From assembly GCA_030272155.1 (NCBI GenBank), contig CP126202.1:1116001-1180000 (forward strand): 64,000 nucleotides of DNA, in the 5' to 3' direction. Numbering within the stretch: the stretch's first letter is position 1; each line of letters starts with the position of its first letter. The DNA is from Tetradesmus obliquus (lineage: Eukaryota > Chlorophyta > Chlorophyceae > Sphaeropleales > Scenedesmaceae). Positions 45,681 to 58,630 of the stretch are shown one piece after another. The notes below the pieces were generated by a model. That model was not told the origin of the DNA. It searched no databases and saw nothing but the letters and a program-made list of their open reading frames with translations. The position numbers and the translations under genes are program-made.

Positions 45681-48600
45681 ATGGAGCAAGACGTCCCACA
45701 GCATCAACCGCAAGATCAGCAGCAGTTCATGCAGCAGCGCACCACCAGTGCTACTGCTCCTGGACTAGAGACAGTCAGCGTGGACATCAATGCGGTCAAG
45801 ATCAACATAACACGCAAGAGGCAGTGGCAGCCAGGTGCGGCACACTTTTAGAATTTTGTGCATAACTGTACACCAGCGTATGCACAGATTGTATCTGGCA
45901 GTATACCGGGGAATTTTCCAATGTTCCATCTGTTGCATGGATGTGTTGCTGCACATGAGTGCAGCGTGCAGCAGGCATGCTCTGTCACCTCAAGTACCTG
46001 CTGCATTCGGTGCCATAGCATTCAGTCAGTTGCTCTGCCACTCGGCCGCGCCTTGAGCGCTGCTGTAAGCATCACACACCAGCACCAAGTTCACTGATGC
46101 ACGCTCTCACACACCCTCGTTCCCCCTTGTTTGTTTATGCCATATGCAGGCACTGCGCCTGCGCCACCATCCCTGGGTGCCTCACAGCCAGAAGACCAAG
46201 AAGATGAAGAGACAGCAGCAGCAGCAGCTGGTACCGCACCTTCTGCTGCTGCTGCAGAGGTGCCGCTGGATGAAGGCAGCAACCCCTTTGCCACACCGGC
46301 GCGCGCTGCGCCAGTGCGCGCGGCTGCAGCTGGCGTGACCCCTGAGGAGCCTGCAGGGCAGCGCGCACAGGTGACTGCTTTGACATGAGCACATGTGTTT
46401 GCAGCAAGAGTACCTGCGCATTTAATGTATATAGTATGTTTTGTTTAAATGTTGCCCAGTGTTGCCTGCATGAGCCTGCAGCGGCAGGCGTGACGCCTGA
46501 GGAGCCTGTAGCGCAGCGCGCACAGGTGACTGCTTTGAGTTAGATGAGAAATGTGTGCAGCAGAAACACCTGGGAGCATAGTATTGTCTGCATGAGGCTG
46601 CAGCAGCTTGCCTGACGCCAGAGGAGCCTGCAGGGCAGCCCGCACAGATGCGGCACATGACCAAGCGTTGCTGGGGAAGCAGGCAAAAACTGCGTGCATT
46701 GAATACGGCTGCATGCATTGTAGCTGGGCTGACTTCAAAGGAGCCTGCAGGGCAGCCCACACAGGTGCGGGTGTGGTGACATATGTATCCCCTGCAAATA
46801 CCAAGCATGTGGTGCAGCTTATGGTGTTGTCATACAGTTGCTTACAACACAGCTGTCAGCTGCTGCTCACCTTTCGGGACAAGATTATATCAGTAATCTC
46901 TGCGGTGTCACTGCCATACTAACTCTTGCCTCACCTTGCTTTGCTGTCCTGCTTTGTCTGTGTCTGCAGCCCAACGCAGCTGCTGCGGCAGCGCCGGCAG
47001 CAGCAGCCACACCAACACCCGGCACTGCTGCTGCTGCTACTCCTACAGGCGCCCCTCCAGGCGCTGTGCATGTGACCACCACCACAACTGCTGCTCAGCT
47101 GCAGCCAGGTGCAGGTGAGCTGATGCTGTTGTTTGACCAATGTTTGACCATTGTTTGACCACTGTTTATATCAATCATGATGATATCGTTAGCTGGGAAG
47201 TTGTGTATTTTTGTTGATGTATTGTGGAATAGCATAGATTGCCGCTGCGCCAGGCCAGTTGAGCTGCTGCGGCTGCTGCCTTGCCGCTGTACAGCAGCAG
47301 CTGTGGTGTGTAGCTGAATGTGAAAACCTCGCGTCCATCAATGAATGCGCAGCAGTGGCGTCCAGGTTGTACAGGCCTGACGGCGTTGCTCATCCTGGAC
47401 GCAACTGCTGCCTGAACACCTTGGCCGTGGAGGCTGTCGCGGCAACCAAACTTTGACCAGCGATCTACCATTGTTTGACCAGCTCAATCATAGTGTTCAG
47501 CTGGCGCGTGTGTGTGCTGTTGTTTCCGCCGGTTGTGTGTGGTGTAGCATGAACTGCACTGCTGCACTAGGTGTAGTTGAGCTGCTGCAGCTGCTGCGGC
47601 TGCTGCCCTGCTACTGCACAGCAGCGTGTGTGTGTAGCTAATTGCGCCATCCCTGCGCGCCTCATGATCAGTGCAGGCACAGCAGTGGCGTTCAAGATGT
47701 GAAACACAACAGGTGTTGCCCAACCTGGACGCAACTGCTGCGCAATCACCCTGGTGGAGCTGCTGTGGCTGTCATGGCCCACTTAGTTTTAGCTGATTGT
47801 GTGTGCAGCAGTGTGAGCTGCACTGCTGCGTCAGGTGCAGTGGACCTGCTGCAGCTGCTGTACAGGGCAGGAACAACAGTACTACAACCTCAACAGCAGC
47901 AGGCCGTGTTGCCGTGTCGCCGTGTCGCCGCTAGCTGGTGTGTAGCTGAGTTCACACCCATGCGCCCCCCAGTGAATGCGCAGCAGAGACGTCCTGGTGC
48001 TCGACATCGCTGAGTTGTTGCTCAACCTGGACGCAACTGCTGCGCTGTCACCCGGGTGGAGCTGCTGTGGCGGCAGCCAGTGTTTGACCAGTGATCTACC
48101 ATTGTTTGACCAGCTGGAGCATATTCTTCAGCTGTGACACGTGTTTGCTGTTATCTGTGTCGCTTGTTTGTCATACAGCATGAACTGCACCGCTGCACTA
48201 GGTGTAGTCGAGCTGCTGCAGCTGCTGTGGCTGCTGCCCTGCTGCTGTGCAGCAGCGTGGGTACAGCTGACTGCAAAATCTTGCATCCCCGATGAATGCG
48301 CAGCAGTGGCGTCCAAGTGGAGGACGCGAGTGACCGTGTCCCTTATTCTGGACGCAGCTGCCGCACATTCTGCATGGTGGAGTTGCTGCTGGTGACTGCC
48401 GCATGTGCCTTGGCCGTTTTCGTACATCATGTTGTGTTACCAATAGCATTACCAATATCAACACCGAAGTATAGGACAAACCTACCTCGGCTAGTTTGAG
48501 GCAATGCAAGAGCGATTGTGGGAGGAGGCAGGAGCTGGCGCTTGGCTTGGTACTGACAGCCAGCCAAGTCCCAGCTGCTGACTCAGCCCAGATGGCTTGC

Positions 48601-49311
48601 TCCCCTTTATCCCCTTTCCCCTTTTCCCTCTCTTGGTTGCCTCGCTTTCCTGGTTGTCTAAGGCATGGTCACAGCAGCCAGTGAGGCACAAAAAGCACAC
48701 GTGGGCCAGGGCAGCAGCTCATGTTGTTGCTGTTGGGGGTTGTTGTTTATGTTCCTGACTGCCCAGGCCCCATTCACAGCAATACAATAAAGCGAGGCGC
48801 GCAACAGCACACTTGGGCAAGGAATGTCTGCAAGCGTGATAATGAAATAGTGATCCCTCACCTTCCCCCGTCTCCTGTTCTTTCAGCCGCTCCTGTGGGG
48901 CGCGGGGCCGATAGCGACGTTGCTATGGCTTAAATGGTAACATGATGATGACGTGGGCAAGGACAGCAGCTGGTACTGCGCAGGGCGACACCTCTTCGCC
49001 CCGCAGCACCAGCTGCTGACTCAGCCCAAGTGGCCTGCGGCCCTGCTGCCTTTCATCAAGTGGCTTCTGTGATATGTGGTGTATGGCGATATGATGACAT
49101 AGTGTACACATAGAGTCTGGCTGACATGCAATGGATGTTGCTTTGTTTGTTGTTGTGATCTGAGGCCTGCGTGCACACATGCAGCACTAGCACAGCTGGG
49201 GCTAAGAAGCATGACACAGACCACGCTGCTGCAGCATGTTCTGCTTGGTGGTCGCGGTGTCAGTGGTGTAGTGGCAGGGATGCTAGCAAACCTCAAACCC
49301 TTTCACGAAGG

Positions 49312-49360
<49 letters not shown>

Positions 49361-50470
49361 CAACAGCAGCAGATGCGCTCAGGCGGGGGCTGGCCCATAT
49401 GCCGTCAGCTGTTGCTGTTGATGTATCACACCCCCCGCCTCAGTGCATGGCACTGCTTGTTCTGGTGCCAGATGGTGTAATGGCAGCGCTGCTAGCAAAG
49501 CTCAAACCCTTGCACAAAGGACAGCAGCAGCATCACCACGTGCGCTCAGGCGGAGGATACTTGACAATGGGCTCCTTTTGCTGCTGTCCTTACCCATCTC
49601 CCACCTCAGCGCATGGCACTGTTTGCTCTAGACTCTGTTCAGTATGTTGCACGATTTGCTTTAGACTCTGTTTGGTTGAACCTCACCCTATCTCGCTGCC
49701 CGTGCTCGTGCTGTTTGTCACCATCTCATTCAACTTGTACATTTTGCTACATCACTTGCTCTCAGTTCGCTCACCTCGTTTCAACATCTCAACAACGCAT
49801 GGATGTGTATGCATGCATACGTATCCTATATGCACCCTGTGCAGGTGCCGGTGCCATTGCTGGCACTCTGACGGCAGTGTCCTCAGCTGTGCGCCCCCTG
49901 GCAGCAAGACTCATCAAAGTGTTTTGATTTCAAACAACAACGGGAATGCATGCATTCACTGCTTGCAGGTGCACGTGTCATTGCTGGCACCCTGGCGGCA
50001 GTGCCCTCAGCTGTACCCCCCCCCCCCCCCCGGCAGCCAACGCCATCATTTTGTGCTGATAATCACACATTGAAACAGAATGCATGCATGTATTGCACAT
50101 GTTCTGCAGGTGCCGGTGCCATGGCTGGGACGCTGGCGGCAGTGCCCTCAGCCGTGCGCCCCCTGGCAGCCGTCCAGATCTGATCAAGTCGTCTAGAATG
50201 TTGAAATGTAACAGGAATGCGTGCATTCACTGCTTGCAGGTGCTGGAGCCATTGCTGGCACCCTGGCCGCAGTCCCCTCAGCCATGCGGCCCCTGGCTGC
50301 CGAACTCACCCATTCGTTTGTGAAGTCGAACAATAATGGAATGTATGCGTTCTTTGCTTGCAGGTGCAGGTGCAATCGCCGGCACACTGGCAGCAGTGCC
50401 CACAGCCGTGCGCCCCCTGGCTGCCAGCGCCATTGCAGCAGCATTGGGACCAGACGCCACCACACCACAC

Positions 50471-50511
<41 letters not shown>

Positions 50512-52843
50512 GCCAACAGAAGCAGCAGGCACACCAGCACCACCACCAGCAGCAGCAGCAGCAGCAGCTGGTGAGGCAAGTGACTACCATGTGCATGAGC
50601 CGGCAACATCTGCTGATGCTGATGCTGATGCAGCAGGTGCTGCTGCACACCAAGCAGCAGCAGATGGTGCAGATGCAGGCGGCAGCAGCGCGCATCCACT
50701 CACTGCAGCAGCAGCTGCTGCTCAGCACACGCAGCACACCACAGTGGAAGAGCTGTTTGATGTCTCAGAGCTGCTGCTGGGCAATGGTGATGATGCAGCA
50801 GCAGCAGCAGCAGCAGCAGTGCCAGCAGCAGCGCCAGCAGCAGCAGCAGCGCCGGCTGCTGGTGGTACTGAAGCCGCCAGCACTACAGCAGATGACTCAG
50901 TGCTGCTGCCGACACTGGTGTATGAGGACGTGGCTGCTGCTGCTGCTGCTGGGCCTGAAACACTAGTTGCTGCCCTAGACGCTGCTGCTTCTGCTGCGGC
51001 TGCTGCCACACCGCAGCATCAGCAGCAGCTGCCGCTGTCCTTTGCACCCCTGGCAGCAGCACCAGCAGTGCCACTAGCAGCAGCAGCAACAACAGGCGCA
51101 CCTGCTGCTGCTGCTGCTGCTGCTGTGGTACCAGTGAGCTTTGATTCCTCAGAGCAGCAGCTTCCAGAGGAAGCAGTAGCCGCTGCAGCTGCTGTAGCGG
51201 CAGCAGCAGTGGCAGCAGCAGCAGCAGCACAGCAGGCTGCGGGTGCTGTTTCCGGCCCTGGCAGCAGTGCACCTGCAGGTGCTGCAGCAGGTGGCACAGC
51301 AGAAGCTGGCGACTCAGCAGCAGATGTGACAACTGCAGATGGTGCAGCACAAAAGCGTGGCAATGCGGCTGTGGATGTGGCTCCTGCTGCTGCTGAGCAG
51401 GTCGGAAAGGAGACGGTGCACAGAATGTTGCGTGTGGCTGCAGCGGCAGCAAAAGGTGGCAGCAGTGACGGAACTGCTGGGCAGCCAGCGACGGGAGATG
51501 GTGCGACAGCAGAACATGCTGCTGCTGCTCCTGCAGCTGCTGAGCAGGTTGGGGAGGAGGCAGTGCACAGAGTGGAGCGTGTGGCAGCAGCAGCACGCAA
51601 GCAACCTACTGATGAAGCAGCAGCAGAGGCAGGCGGGGAGGGAGTGACAGCAGACGGTGCCACGGCAGAGCGTGACGATGCAGCTGCTGCTGCTCCAACT
51701 GCTGCTGAGCAGGTTGGGGAGGAGGCAGTGCACAGAATGGAGCGTGTGGCTGCAGCAGCAGCAGCAGCAGCGGATGGTGGCAGCAGCAAAATCCCCTCTG
51801 AGCAGCCAGCGACGGCAGACGGTGCCACAGCAGAACGTGACCATGCAGCAGCCGCGGCTGCTCCTGCTGCTGCTGAGCAGGTTGGAGAGGAGACGGTTCA
51901 CAGGGTACACCGTGTGGCAGCAGCAGCAACCAAGCAACCTGCTGATGAAGCAGCAGCAGCAGCAGCAGCAGCAGACGAGCCGGAAGGGGGGTTTACGACA
52001 GCAGACGGTGCCACAGCAGAGCGTGATGATGCAGCTGCTGCTGCTCCTGCAGCTGCTGTGCAGGTTGGAGAGGAGGCAGTGCAGAGGGTGCAGCGTGTGG
52101 CAGCAGCAGCAAGCAAGCCACCTGCTGATGCAGCAGCAGCAGCAGCAGAGGCAGGCGGGGAGGTTACAACTGCAGATGGCGCCACAGCAGAGCGTGATGA
52201 TGCAGCAGCAGCTGCTGCTGCTGCTTCTCCTGCTGAGCAAGTTGGAGATGAGGCAGTGCACAGAATGGAGCGCGCGGCAGCAGCAGCAGCAGCGGAGCCA
52301 GCCGCAGGGGAGGCAGCACATGCTGCTGATGCTGCTGCACCGGCTGAGACTGAGACTGTGCCTCTGGAGGTAGCAGCAGCTGCAGCAGAGGCCGCAGCAG
52401 CTGCAGCCGCTGCTGCTGCTGCCACAGCAGTTGCCAATGCCTTTGCAGAGCTTGCTCCAGGCTCTGGAGACATCCAGCTGACCTCACCGGCAGCAGCAGC
52501 AGCAGGGCTGGAGCCGGCGGCTGCCGAACTTGGAAGTTTACTAGGAAGTTCACTGCTGGGCTTTGAAGCTCTCGGTGTGAACTTGGATGTGAACTTGGGC
52601 GTGAATGTGGGGCTGGAGATGCAGCGGGCAGCAGTGCCGGAAGGCCAGACTGCACTTGGCATTGTACAGCAGGGGCCAGTGTTTGAACTGTTTGGCCAGC
52701 AGCAGCAGCAGCAGCAGCAGCGGCAGCAGCAGCAGCAGGGCTTAGGGTTGTTTGAGAGTGCGCTGCTGCAGGCATCACAGGAGGACACAGCAGCAGCTGG
52801 TGAGGTGGCAGGTGACTTGGGTGGTACCTTGCAGGTTGCCGAC

Positions 52844-52875
<32 letters not shown>

Positions 52876-52942
52876 TCGCAGGCGAAGCCGCTTCAGCACG
52901 CAACGCCGCACCAGCCAGCAGCAGCAGGGCGCTACAGAGGCA

Positions 52943-52979
<37 letters not shown>

Positions 52980-53698
52980 CCCCTGGCAGCTTGCTGGGGC
53001 GCTTTGGTTTGCCTGCTGCTGCTGCCACTTCAGCTGGATCAGCAGAAGATGCAGAGGACCAGCAGGGCACAGCAGCAGCAGCAGAAGCAGCAGCAGCAGG
53101 GCGGCGCAGCCGGCAGTTCAGAGGCCTGCCTACATATGAAGAGCAGGCAGAGGAGCTGCAGCAGCAGGAAGATGAAGATACAGCAGCAGAAATGGAGCTG
53201 TACCAGCTTGGCAGCATCACAGTTCAGCGTGATGATGTTGATGGTGATGACATTCTGGAGTATGCAGCCACGGCAGCAGATGCTGCAGCAGCAGAGGATT
53301 CTCTGTTTGCAGCTTTGGATCTGCCCACCACGCCAGATGCTGCTGCTGCCGCTGCTGCTGCTGCTCATCGCCGCCGCCGCAGACGCAGCAGCAGGCAGGC
53401 TGATCAGGCATTGCAGCAGCAGCAGCAGCAGCAGCAGCGCACAAGGCAGGCAGGAGTGCGGCTGTTCAACCCATGGAGTGCGGCAGCAGCAGCAGGCAGC
53501 ATCGCTGCGACACTGGTGGGTGCGGTGCGGTCTGTGGTGGGCGGCATTGCTGGCGAGCTTGCTGCTGCTACTGCTGCTTCATCTGGAGAGGAGGCAGAGG
53601 AATTGGCGGCAGCAGCAGCAGCAGGAGATGAGGAGGAGCAGCTGGCAGCAGCAGAGGAAGAGGAGGAGGAGCAGGAGGAAGAAGATGCAGAGCTGGCG

Positions 53699-53736
<38 letters not shown>

Positions 53737-54937
53737 GGAGGAGGGAGAGGATGAGCAGGCAGATCAGGGTGCTGCTGCAGCTGAAGAAACAGAGTTCAGC
53801 CCCGAAGCAGGTCCTGCTGTGGATGATGATTTGGCAATAGCAGCAGCAGCACATGAGACAGCAGCGGCAGCAGCGGTAGGTCCTGCTGCTGCAGTGGATG
53901 ATGCTGGCGGCAGTCCTGATGTTGCACGCGCTGCGGCGCAGGCTGCAGCCGCAGCTGTGCAGGCAGCTGAAAAAGAAGCAGCAGCAGCAGGTAGGGAGGC
54001 TGGTACAGCAGCAGCAGCAGCAGCAGCAAGCACAGAGGGCCTTGCGAGGACAGCAGCATCAGCAGCTGCAGCAGCAGCAGTTGATGCTGTGGGCGAGGGT
54101 GATGCAGCAGCAGCAGTAGCAGCAGGGGATGCTGCGGCAGCAGCAGCAGTGCAGGCTGCTGCTGCTGCTGGGCCTGGGGCTGTTTCAGATGAGGCTGTGA
54201 TAGCAGCAGCAACTGCAGCGGCTACTGCTGCTGCTACTGCCACTGCTGCACTGACTGGAGCAGCTCTGAAGGAGGCAGAGGATGAAGCGACAGCAGCAGC
54301 AGCAGCAGCAGATGCTGCTGCTGCATTGGAAGCAGGGCCAGTAGAAGACAGCATGCTGGTGCTGCCAGCAGCCACAGATGATGGTGAAGAAGCACCTGCC
54401 GCCGCTGCTGCTGCTGCAAATGAGACAGAGCTTGCAGCAGCTGCTGCTGTTGATGCATCTGACATTGAGGCAGAGGCAGCAGCAGAGGCTGACAGGGCAG
54501 CAGCAGCAGCGGCAGCGGTTGCTGGCAGAGAAGCAGCAGATGCAGCAGATGCAGCAACAGCAGCGGAAGCAGGGGATTCTGACAAGGCAGGTGATGCTGC
54601 TGTTGCTGGCGGGGAAGCAGCAGATGCAGCAGCAGCAGCAGATGCAGCAGTAGCAGGTGATACTGACGAGGCAGCTGCAGTTGATGCTGCTGTGGCAGCA
54701 GTGGATGAGGCTGTAGCAGCAGTTGAGGCTGCTGAGCACGCCGCAGCAGCAGCAGCAGCAGATGCAGCTCCTGGATCTGTTGAGGATGATGCAGCTGCTG
54801 TCAGTGATGCAGCAGCAGCAGAGGAAAAAGAAGGAGAGGACGAGGATGAGCAGCAGCAGCAGCAGCAGCATGGCAACCTGTCAGACAGCCAGCTGGAGGA
54901 GCAGCTGCCTGGCTGGCAGCCGGTGCGCAAGCGCAGC

Positions 54938-54975
<38 letters not shown>

Positions 54976-55722
54976 ATCTACCGATGCTGCACAGCTGCTG
55001 CATGCAACCCCAGCAGCAGATGGAGCAGCAGCAGCAGACGGCGCAGGACACAAAGCAAAGAAGGCAAAGGCCAGGGCAGCAGCAAAGCCCCTCACAGCGC
55101 GCCGCCGCACACGTGCATCAGCAGCAGCAGATGAGGCTGCAACTCCAGCAGCAGCAGCAACAGAGTCGGACCAGCCAGCAGCAGCAGCAGCAGCTCCTAG
55201 CAGGGCCAAGCCCCGCAGGAGCAGCAGGCTAGCTCCTATGGCCGCTGCTGCAGATGCAGCGGACGCAGCGGCAGCACCAACACGCAAGCGCCGCAAGCAG
55301 CAGCTGCTGCAGCCTCTTGCACACGACAAAGCCCCTGCACCTGCTGCTGCAGCTGCTGCTGCCGCTGAAGGTGAAGACACTGAGGCAGATGCTGGTCATG
55401 ACACTGAAGCAGCAGCAGCAGACACAGCAGCAGCAGCAGCAGACGCAGCTGTTGAGGTGGCAGATGGCAGCAGTGTGCCACAGTTCCTGAGGGCATGGCA
55501 TGTGGGTGGGGTGGGGGCCCTGGCACCTGCTGCTGCTGCTGCCATTGCAGCAGCACAGCACGGTGCTGCTGCTGCTGGTGGGTTCAGCAAGACGTTTGAG
55601 AGCAGGCATGGCGGCAGGAGGAAGAGCAGCGTGGCGCGGCGACTGGAGCTACGAGCTTCAGCTGCTGATGATGATGATGTTACTGCTGCTGCTGCTGCTG
55701 AAGGCGGCGGCACAACCGTGAT

Positions 55723-55779
<57 letters not shown>

Positions 55780-55831
55780 GCAGAGTGGCCAGGACTCTCC
55801 AAGAAGCCTCACACTGCGCCTGCGGCCACCT

Positions 55832-55876
<45 letters not shown>

Positions 55877-56427
55877 GATGCTGAGCTGCCCTCCCCAACC
55901 AAGTCTCGCCTGCTGAGGAAGAGGCCGCTGCAGCAGCCCTTGGCAGGGCATGCTGCAGAGGCAGCAGCAGCAGCAGCAGCAGCAGCAGCGCCGGCAGCAG
56001 CAGCAGCGCAGGCAGCCACGCCAAGCCGCCGCATGAAGATTGGCAATACAGGTGGGATGATGAGATATCTTGCTTTCAAAGTGTTTATGAAAAGGTCCTG
56101 GCTTGCAGTTCTGTAGAAAGTGGCGTACATGGCAGCATGCTAGCCAGATACGCCACTTTTCATAGAACCGCAAGCCTCCATGTTTCGCCGCACACAGCTG
56201 TGGAGACATAGACCATATGCATCACACAGTTTCTCCGCACGCGTTTTTATGAAAGTGTTGCTGAATGGTTGTGTGGCGGCAACGGTTTTCCATGTTGTAC
56301 TGCCTGCACTGTACTGCCTACATTGCATTGCTTGCATTGTACCTCCTGAACTGTACTGCCACACCAATCTGTCCACATTGCACTGCACTGCCTGCCCAAC
56401 AGCAGCAGCCCTACCGCCAGCAATGGC

Positions 56428-56463
<36 letters not shown>

Positions 56464-56949
56464 CGAGGACCAGCTTGAAGAGCAGCGGGCCAGCCCTGAG
56501 CTATGGACAGGCACTGCTGCTGCTGACTTTGGCTTCGAAGCAGACTGGGCTGCAGCAGCAGCAGACGATGAAGCTGCTGCTGCTACAGCAGCAGCAGACG
56601 CAGAAGACGCAGACGAGGCAGCAGATGGCAATTATGATGCTGCTGAGCAAGATGCAGCTGCAGCTGCAGGTGATGTGACTGGCTTCACTGTTGATGCAGG
56701 CTGGGATGGCTATGAGGACAGCTTGGGGATAGCAGAGGATGATGCAGCAGCAGCAGCAGCACCGCAGGATGCAGAAGCTGCTGCTGATGCTGCCGCACCC
56801 TTTGCCAGGGGTGGTGGCAGCAGCAGCCGCGGCAAGCATAGGGGTCTAGCAGCTGCAGCACCACCTGCTAGGGCCGCAGCCAGTAGGGGCAGGGCTGCTG
56901 CTAGCCATGGCACAGCCAGGGGCGGTGGCAGCAGCAGCCGTGCTGCTGC

Positions 56950-57009
<60 letters not shown>

Positions 57010-57553
57010 CCGTGTGAGCAGCAGTGCCAGGGCAGGGCTGATCTTCCCAGTGGCAAGGGTGGCACGGCACATGAGGCAGAGGAACTTGGCAGCGCGCATG
57101 GCGAGAGGTGAGGCTGTGTGTGTGATGTATCCGATTTCATGCTTTGTACAGCCTTGATCATGCTTTGTACAGCTTTGATCATGCTTTGTACAGCCTTGAT
57201 CATGCTTTGTACAGCCTTGATCATGATGTGCTGCCCACATAAGGGAGAACTTGGCGGCACGCATGGCAAAAGGTGAGGCTGTGGCTGCATTGAACAGCCT
57301 GTAGTATCACTGTGCGCAAAATTGCACTGCATGCATTGCACTGCACACATGAGGGCGCTCAACTCGGCAATGCATATGGCATCCTTGCAGGGGCCGTCAA
57401 CTGTTGCGCCGTGTGCTGCTGCGCGTGTACGTGATCATGTCGTTGTCTGAGTTGTTGGTGATGTGTGCCGCAGCCCTCAAACAAGTGCCTATTGAGTGCC
57501 AGCCCTCAAAACAGCTGACGGCTGCACTGCTGTTGGTCCTGACATGTGTATGC

Positions 57554-57629
<76 letters not shown>

Positions 57630-58408
57630 TGCGCCCGTGTACATGGCTGCTGTGCTGGAGTACTTGGCTGGCGAGGTGATGGAGCTGGCTGGGCAGGCAG
57701 CAGCAGAGGTGGGCAGGCGCCGCATTACACCAAGGTGAGGGTTTGTTTGTTGTTACAAATGTTATAAGTAGTGTTACAAATGTTACATGTACATCAGCAT
57801 ATGGACGCTTTTAGGTTCTCTATTGGAGCTGGCAGGGCAGGCAGCAGCAGCGGTGGGCAAGCGCTGCATTACACCCAGGTGAGGGCCGTGTTCCTTTTAC
57901 AAGGTGTTTCGTATCGTGTTTCAAGTTTGCATGCCTGTGACACAGCACTAAGAGTTTGGCCGGGGGCGTTGGCAGCGTTATATTGTTGCTGCCGCTACAG
58001 GCACCTGGATATTAGGGGCGATGCTGAGCTGTCGCGGCTGCTGCCCTTGCGAAGATCTACTTCCCTTGCCAAACTCAAAACCAACCCCTTGTAACCATGC
58101 TGCTGCCCCTGCAAGCACCTGCAGCTGGCCATTTGGGGCGATTCTGAGCTGTCGCGGCTGCTTCTACTGGCCCACAAACCTGCTGCTGTTGCAGAGGTAT
58201 TATCTGACCCAAACCTTGAACCCTTCTGCTGCTCTGCAGGCACCTGCAGCTGGCCATCAGGGGCGATGCTGAGCTGTCGCGACTGCTGCAGCACACAGTC
58301 ATCAGCCAGGGTGGCGTGCTGCCCCACATTGAGCCTGCGCTGCTGCCAGCCACGCGCAGGCAGCAGCAGCAGCAGCATGGAGCAGCTGGTGCATCGGACA
58401 GTGAGTGA
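45681..58408 (+). CDS. giant protein with a C-terminal histone H2A fold
   Basis: Seven exons join in phase: 45681-45834, 46150-46370, 46970-47114, 50364-56051, 56403-57107, 57629-57734, 58240-58408, giving about 2,395 residues. Residues 1 to about 2270 are low-complexity: Ala, Gln, acidic blocks, six diverged repeats around [14 protein letters not shown], and basic clusters ([34 protein letters not shown]) that look like nuclear-localisation or DNA-binding tails. Residues about 2276-2376 are H2[75 protein letters not shown]. Acidic-patch residues are kept (E56, E61, E64, D90, E92) except E91, which is Ala. The tail is short, Gln-rich, and lacks an H2A.X SQ motif. The H2A core is certain. The full fusion rests on splice phase alone; separate or alternative transcripts are possible. 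Confidence 0.75.
46470..46775 (+). repeat. three copies of the 3' edge of exon 2 of the giant H2A gene
   Basis: Segments like GC(G/C)TGACxCCxGAGGAGCCTG(C/T)AG followed by GGCAG(C)xCGCACAG|GTG recur near 46488, 46610 and 46728 after the true exon end at 46320-46376. Each keeps a CACAGGTG-type donor or its decayed form. Confidence 0.8.
47240..48400 (+). repeat. four diverged tandem units of about 250-375 bp in intron 3 of the giant gene
   Basis: A block with TTGAGCTGCTGC(G/A)GCTGCTG...GAATGCGCAGCAG(T/A)G(G/A)CGTCC...CTGGACGCA(A/G)CTGC recurs from about 47250, 47575, 47830 and 48205. Between them ATCTACCATTGTTTGACCAGCT recurs at 47463 and 48095. No coding role is seen. Confidence 0.75.
48500..49060 (+). 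other. intron 3 segment with a decayed duplication
   Basis: AGCTGCTGACTCAGCCCA(G/A)(A/G)TGGC occurs at 48577 and 49009, each followed by a polypyrimidine-rich stretch. This may be a remnant of the same kind of duplication. No gene is recognised. Confidence 0.4.
49225..49640 (+). repeat. two-copy duplication of about 200 bp in intron 3
   Basis: The stretch from GTGTAGTGGCAGGGATGCTAG through CCTCAAACCCTT, a CAG run, GCGCTCAGGCGG, to CCTCAGTGCATGGCACTG (49265-49455) recurs at 49475-49625. Confidence 0.8.
49845..50330 (+). repeat. four tandem copies of the 5' edge of exon 4 of the giant gene
   Basis: A TTGCAG or TCTGCAG acceptor with codons for GA(G)[18 protein letters not shown] occurs at about 49843, 49968, 50108 and 50240 before the true exon at 50364 (spacing about 125-140 bp). 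Several copies stay open across the exon-like part. One has a 16-C run (50016-50031) replacing a few codons. Confidence 0.9.
51391..52290 (+). repeat. six-copy coding repeat within the giant exon
   Basis: The motif (E/V)QVG(E/K/D)E(A/T)V(H/Q)R(M/V)xR(V/A) begins near 51395, 51542, 51707, 51875, 52055 and 52235, with intervening [14 protein letters not shown] segments. Spacing is 147-181 bp, always a multiple of three or re-framed by CAG-run length. It may form a helical array. Confidence 0.85.
56117..56159 (+). promoter_or_regulatory. perfect inverted repeat directly after the read-through stop of exon 4
   Basis: AAAGTGGCGTA (56117-56127) and TACGCCACTTT (56149-56159) can pair over 11 bp with a 21-nt loop. 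If intron 4 is retained, the giant frame stops at TAG 56114-56116, immediately before this hairpin. It could mark an alternative mRNA end or be a remnant of a small element. Its loop is far too long for the classic histone 3' stem-loop. Confidence 0.5.
57140..57222 (+). repeat. 20-21-bp minisatellite in intron 5 of the giant gene
   Basis: TGATCATGCTTTGTACAGCC or a one-base variant is repeated four times in a row. A nearby copy of the exon 5 end (AACTTGGCGGCACGCATGGC then AAAAGGTGAGGCTG, 57247-57280) follows. Confidence 0.9.
57825..58180 (+). repeat. copies of the exon 6 end and exon 7 start of the H2A core in intron 6
   Basis: 57829-57895 repeats the end of exon 6 ([17 protein letters not shown] plus GTGAGG). 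58000-58052 and 58118-58165 repeat the start of exon 7 (HLQLAI-GD-ELSRLL with CTACAG or CAAGCAC in front) before the true exon 7 at 58240. The copies contain changes that would damage the histone fold, so the phase-consistent outer pair is the best model. Confidence 0.85.
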
Positions 58409-58479: not shown

Positions 58480-58630
58480 GAGCCGCTGCTGCAGCACACA
58501 GTCATCAGCCAGGGTGGCGTACTGCCCCACATTGAACCTGCGCTGCTGCCAGCCACGCGCAGGCAGCAGCAGCAGCAGCAGCAGCAGCGGCACGGAGCAT
58601 TTGGTGCTTCGGACTGTGAGTGAGCCTGCG
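58480..58630 (+). repeat. copy of the C-terminal coding part of the H2A core in the 3' flank
   Basis: It repeats [20 protein letters not shown] then [10 protein letters not shown], ending near a GAGTGA. A further fragment CTGCGCTGCTGCCAGCCACG lies at 58627. A CAG/CTG inverted run (58712-58750) could form a hairpin. Confidence 0.85.

Follow-up and report, generated by a model that had tools for sequence, protein, structure and literature searches.

A candidate H2A variant with an N-terminal arm of about 2,270 residues encoded in the green alga Tetradesmus obliquus

How large can the tail of a core histone become before the protein ceases to be a histone? Such tails usually measure 15-40 residues, and the question is raised in an extreme form by a locus of Tetradesmus obliquus that lies in a stretch of 64,000 nucleotides (assembly GCA_030272155.1, contig CP126202.1, positions 1,116,001 to 1,180,000 of the forward strand; this whole stretch is called the window here, and positions are given in its coordinates unless stated otherwise). 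There, a seven-exon gene on the + strand, 45681-58408, would encode a protein of 2,395 residues, the last 121 of which form an H2A core, preceded by an arm of ~2,270 residues, i.e. ~20 times the size of the histone part. The likeliest reading, to which we would give roughly an even chance on the strength of the sequence, is that the full 2,395-residue form is a nucleosomal H2A variant with a mostly disordered N-terminal arm. Its coding sequence of 7,188 nt (2,395 codons plus a single terminal stop) is divided as follows:

45681..45834, + strand: exon 1, M1 to residue 52, with a basic stretch; start context ACC-ATG-G, phase 0, donor CAG/gtgcgg
46150..46370, + strand: exon 2, frame without a stop; acceptor ATGCAG/G, donor CAG/gtgact
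46970..47114, + strand: exon 3; acceptor CTGCAG/C, donor CAG/gtgagc
50364..56051, + strand: exon 4, the bulk of the arm, Ala-rich and acidic, with poly-Gln
56403..57107, + strand: exon 5, a single open frame with ~200 residues of Ala/acidic/RG-rich arm, a run of 22 Ala, then H2A alpha-N and alpha-1
57629..57734, + strand: exon 6, the H2A part covering the end of loop 1, alpha-2 and the beginning of loop 2; 92% match over 39 residues
58240..58408, + strand: exon 7, H2A alpha-3, docking domain (GGVLPHI), C-terminal tail and stop

The splice borders were picked by eye and checked by the GT-AG rule and by phase; all six introns run from GT to AG, and the re-joined coding sequence bears out the claim of an earlier note on this DNA, made from its letters, that the exons join in phase at all six junctions. 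The four peptide stretches quoted in that note are likewise all found in the translation, which ends in GAAGASDSE and contains no cysteine over its whole length. Both Pfam families expected of such a core, Histone (47.4 bits, cut-off 26.4) and Histone_H2A_C (46.8 bits, cut-off 20), match the last 121 residues, confirming the earlier proposal that a long open frame ends in an H2A core, and a comparison of this core with the Protein Data Bank returned 210 distinct sequences at E <=0.001, with all 60 among the matches listed named H2A. The gene is real and intact and, it appears, mis-annotated; its product would be an extended H2A variant. The public model of the gene (P0001; OEZ86_004512, Tetradesmus obliquus) is 100% identical to this protein and has only 103 residues; it starts inside alpha-1, lacks alpha-N, half of alpha-1 and the entire arm, and, deriving from the same assembly, is not independent evidence. 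The predicted structure of this fragment (mean predicted local distance difference test score 72.8; helices at 3-39, 47-55 and 58-63) is in keeping with alpha-2, alpha-3 and alpha-C, and adds little, alpha-N being absent. Pfam was also run at E <=0.001 on ten long open frames from other parts of the window, out of 84 of at least 150 residues, and matched none of the ten.

What kind of H2A does the core represent, and could it enter a nucleosome? In the alignment, arginines R29, R42 and R77 are retained, as are five of the six acidic-patch residues, the exception being E91, which is replaced by Ala (human numbering). Because the main contact residues are kept, incorporation of the core into nucleosomes seems plausible. 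Relative to the usual H2A, the core has a rewritten loop 1 and a rewritten alpha-2 end, and its identity to the alga's ordinary H2A is 59%. Eighteen residues absent from the ordinary H2A are common to the core and to a Scenedesmus protein, P0002, and the two pair in the tree with a support of 100. In addition, a stem-loop of the form GGTGTT-loop-AACACC, which stands 48-133 nt past the stop of 11 of 12 other H2A genes, occurs on neither strand of the 64-kb window. These features mark the core as a distinct H2A variant of the Scenedesmaceae, one of the replacement (replication-independent) type. The stem-loop itself, conserved near histone genes L001-L003, L009-L018 and L021, is probably the histone 3' processing signal of this alga; it was located by pattern, Rfam at its gathering score being silent in the loci tested.

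It could be argued that the same core belongs to a long low-complexity nuclear protein that uses an H2A-type fold to dimerise with H2B or to bind nucleosomes and never becomes part of a nucleosome core. The divergence of the core from the alga's own H2A, its rewritten loop 1 and alpha-2 end and the substitution in its acidic patch would all suit such a protein. Nevertheless, two genera conserve the docking domain, a part required within the octamer, and the DNA-contact arginines are kept in the core, with R77 also present in P0002, whose record stops short of R29 and R42. A purely non-nucleosomal protein is therefore considered unlikely.

If the core is a nucleosomal H2A, is the arm really joined to it? 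A partial answer comes from exon 5, where one uninterrupted frame leads from the Ala/acidic arm via the RG-rich stretch and the 22 alanines into alpha-N and alpha-1. Since about 200 residues of arm are joined here to the first H2A helix without any junction, an extended H2A is likely to be encoded even if the junction between exons 4 and 5 should be wrong, unless translation begins inside alpha-1 as in the public model. The joining of exon 4 to exon 5, in turn, rests on splice consensus, phase and style, and it is at this point that a reading with two genes has to be weighed. Were intron 4 retained, the frame of exon 4 would meet a TAG stop at 56114, and the frame of exon 5 extends without a stop back into the presumed intron as far as 56144; it contains an ATG at 56180, another at 56249 and, within exon 5, a third at 56423. 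A long Ala-rich protein could thus end at 56114 and a separate H2A start at any of these three codons; the public model is indeed a separate short gene, and arm and core differ in their GC content at third codon positions (GC3). Even then, the H2A would have about 319-400 residues and still bear an Ala/acidic extension. Against two genes speak the short space of about 60-310 nt that would remain for a terminator and a promoter, the GT donor and AG acceptor that join in phase at 56051/56403, and the fact that exon 5 shares the Ala/acidic style and the GC3 (0.41) of exon 4. The pentamer TGTAA is the green-algal poly(A) signal, and there is none on the + strand between 50212 and 58089; this is a weak argument against a separate gene, because TGTAA is absent for 1,371 nt past the real stop as well. 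On balance, a division into two genes is the main alternative but strikes us as rather doubtful. As to the signal in general, the window contains 103 TGTAA on both strands versus 68 expected, a number that none of 100 shuffles reached, which fits its use in polyadenylation.

The single long protein is thus preferred, and the next question is whether its arm is translated at all. Alanine makes up 37% of the arm; exon 4 contains six internal repeats (residues about 500-840) and basic patches (about 1010-1200 and 1690-2070), followed by an RG-rich segment at about 2205-2275. No Pfam match was obtained for exon 4 at E <=0.01, and no Pfam domain in the first 210 residues of the protein. Over its 1,895 codons exon 4 is free of stops in the coding frame, versus 30 and 97 stops in the other forward frames and 23, 23 and 10 in the reverse frames. 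Perfect trinucleotide tracts of at least four units in the coding sequence also keep to one frame: all 18 CTG tracts read Ala and none Leu or Cys, and the 48 CAG tracts read Ala (38) or Gln (10), never Ser. As non-coding tracts would be expected in any frame, this bias argues for coding, strongly though not as a clean probability, since duplicated tracts are not independent. The internal repeats point the same way. In a 17-residue block compared across all six copies, the proportions of synonymous (pS) and nonsynonymous (pN) differences are 0.31 and 0.11 (pN/pS 0.36), and in a 14-residue block compared across five copies, the sixth having diverged from the motif and been omitted, they are 0.48 and 0.08 (pN/pS 0.16); the blocks are short and the pairs of copies not independent of one another. 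The arm therefore bears the marks of selection at the protein level and looks translated.

How might an arm of this size have arisen? Part of the answer lies in the growth of CAG/CTG repeats, which is common in this genome: the density of tracts of this type is 118 bp/kb over 45681-58408, as against 13-54 bp/kb in five sampled 8-kb regions. Within the window, the first 44 kb have 39 bp/kb and the last 4.7 kb have 17 bp/kb. No paralogue of the arm emerged from the genome, where arm pieces of 82 and 58 residues matched this locus, plus two weak matches at E >0.1. Another part of the answer may be read from the partial exon copies that surround the gene:

49845..50330, + strand: four pseudo-exons in intron 3, each a partial copy of the exon 4 start, seen in translation; an AG acceptor before each, by eye
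57246..57395, + strand: end of exon 5, copied twice and decayed (intron 5; D11, D12)
57822..57880, + strand: decayed copy of part of exon 6 (intron 6; D10, 84%)
58001..58200, + strand: start of exon 7, copied twice and decayed (intron 6; D9)
58486..58626, + strand: recent copy of the end of exon 7, 3' of the stop (D5, 98% over 95 nt)

The locus thus grows via tandem duplication and repeat expansion, which could explain the length of the arm. By eye, repeated units fill intron 3 (47115-50363, 3.2 kb), and a GGACGCAACTGCTGC-like segment occurs several times among them. Might the whole gene then be no more than a decaying, non-functional H2A relic in a CAG-repeat-rich and duplication-prone locus? 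The decayed copies in three of the introns (3, 5 and 6) and beyond the 3' end of the gene, as well as the high tract density, are what such a relic would display, but the 2,395 codons of the main exons are free of stops, which some of the copies do contain, the tracts keep their frame bias, pN/pS stays below 1, and Scenedesmus keeps the core. Decay of the gene as a whole is accordingly regarded as quite improbable.

Several observations nonetheless weigh against a full-length nucleosomal variant. The public record has only the 103-residue model, though that model is without alpha-N and half of alpha-1; the conserved acidic-patch residue E91 is lost; the copies of exons in the introns mark the gene as unstable; and on the + strand the stop is followed by 1,371 nt before the first TGTAA. 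The arm has a GC3 of 0.41 and the core one of 0.71, a gap that reflects the GCA and GCT alanine codons and may also mean a different history of the two parts; after removal of Ala and Gln codons the values are 0.53 and 0.78. Finally, the attached arm is known from this one genome among those available, the Scenedesmus record being incomplete at its 5' end.

Supposing that the full-length variant is made, how would it work? The core would pair with H2B, and the variant would enter nucleosomes, at low density, by exchange. Those basic and RG-rich segments that are closer to the core (about 1690-2070 and 2205-2275) would then lie on nearby DNA, and the acidic, Ala- and Gln-rich remainder would form a bulky, flexible brush that spaces neighbouring nucleosomes and gathers chromatin factors, so that the protein as a whole would act as a nucleosome-anchored disordered scaffold and not as a packing histone. 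A second unusual gene of this alga deserves mention here. At L046 (G000:C5:729700-731900, - strand), a frame of 299 residues comprises ~210 largely acidic residues and then, by eye, a divergent H3-like fold, for which Pfam Histone gives 53.9 bits; it seems distinct from the CENH3-like gene, and exons of a probable centromeric H3 were seen by eye at L048 (G000:C7:3658000-3660200, + strand). It is conceivable, speculatively, that L046 and the present H2A imply unusual nucleosomes in this alga. A tentative possibility is that the Scenedesmaceae possess a giant nucleosomal histone, its ~2,270-residue arm being a covalent, nucleosome-anchored disordered scaffold, and that together with the long-armed H3-like protein it may form special nucleosomes whose tails outweigh the octamer. 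If true, a working H2A with an arm ~20 times its core would contradict the view that core histones are necessarily small, would serve as a natural experiment on the bulk that a nucleosome can tolerate and on whether tails alone can organise chromatin, and would show that such proteins can escape gene prediction, the public annotation having retained the last 103 residues only.

Are there other long-armed H2As? Among 416 candidate proteins of 1317-4191 residues there were two H2A matches, P0121 and P0122, both of which contain domains of other genes and most probably represent merged gene models. Proteins of 327-1040 residues gave 27 matches among 1,280 candidates, namely 18 named fungal ones (either merged with other domains or H2A/H2A.Z preceded by long 5' parts), four macroH2As by domain and five metagenomic ones; the lengths 213-326, which would include the 319-residue product from ATG 56423, and 1041-1316 lie outside this search. 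All 29 matches were measured by script, P0121 and nine of the 27 were inspected individually, and P0122 was judged by its domains only. Two of the metagenomic proteins have N-terminal parts of up to 240 residues, Ser/Ala-rich near the core and perhaps starting at Met 129 (P0136), and of 67 residues (P0130); a third (P0142, 367 residues) looks by eye like an H2B-H2A doublet histone. None of the N-terminal parts of more than 60 residues among the 29 matches exceeds 17% Ala, versus 37% here, and none comes near this length. The literature search on histones likewise returned no H2A with an arm of this size among the matches listed, subscription journals being mostly outside its coverage, and an article on the Scenedesmus strain (PMC7955037) contains none of the terms looked for. 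The earlier remark that no described histone of such architecture is known thus holds within the two length ranges and the literature searched. A viral origin was dismissed, as an alignment search of one viral contig collection gave 42 pattern matches, none encoding a relative. The core has 1,542 protein matches, and many of the best 120 listed are basidiomycete H2As, identity reaching 66% outside the Scenedesmaceae versus 59% to the alga's own H2A. Transfer from fungi was not adopted, because the tree does not settle the position of the core (supports 65 and 43) and because its alpha-1 RVAR resembles the algal RLAR and not the fungal RIHR.

How, then, does this protein compare with known histones? 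With the alga's canonical, replication-coupled H2A the core shares the histone fold, the docking domain and most acidic-patch residues, but most genes of the canonical form lie near other histone genes, carry the 3' stem-loop and encode a short tail; the absence from the window of the stem-loop found at 11 of 12 other H2A genes led to rejection of a replication-coupled H2A. H2A.X was rejected since the C-terminal SQ[D/E][F/Y] is absent. According to the part of PMC12459048 available, H2A.Z is marked by the LEYLTAEVLELAGNA signature, one additional residue in loop 1 and one residue less in the docking domain; the present core lacks the signature, shows no length change relative to the alga's canonical H2A and is only 54% identical to the alga's H2A.Z, to which family it was therefore not assigned. 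The same source describes H2A.N of brown seaweeds, likewise an H2A variant with a lengthened N-terminal tail, whose extension is ~30 residues, which has a QSLRA motif in alpha-N and which its authors did not detect in the green and red algae they searched; the alpha-N region of the present core is without QSLRA, and H2A.N was set aside. MacroH2A combines an H2A core with a large extra part, as here, but its extra part is a C-terminal macro domain; it was rejected, as only 19 residues follow the docking-domain LLP and the core piece has no macro domain match.

Among the relatives listed, the closest is P0002 of Scenedesmus sp. NREL 46B-D3 ('histone-fold-containing protein, partial'), which is 90% identical (65/72 shared core columns), starts at the same exon 6 border and has a similar ...DSE end; its record being 5' incomplete, the comparison concerns the core only. 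As regards extensions, the portion of PMC3156773 available reports one of 11 residues in Oikopleura H2A.Z, and a metagenomic H2A of 340 residues (P0147) bears an H2A-type core, H2A.Z-like by eye, after a low-complexity N-terminal part of 145 residues (30% D/E, 30% K/R, 6% Ala; ~1/16 of the present arm) and before a further 94 residues. A further parallel in architecture is offered by the long-tailed cenH3 proteins, in which a core histone fold follows a very long N-terminal tail, as here; that of Dictyostelium, >520 residues according to the part of PMC9145170 available, is the longest histone tail that we found cited. These proteins are, by contrast, of the H3 type and centromeric, and even that tail reaches ~1/4 of the length of the arm proposed here for an H2A.

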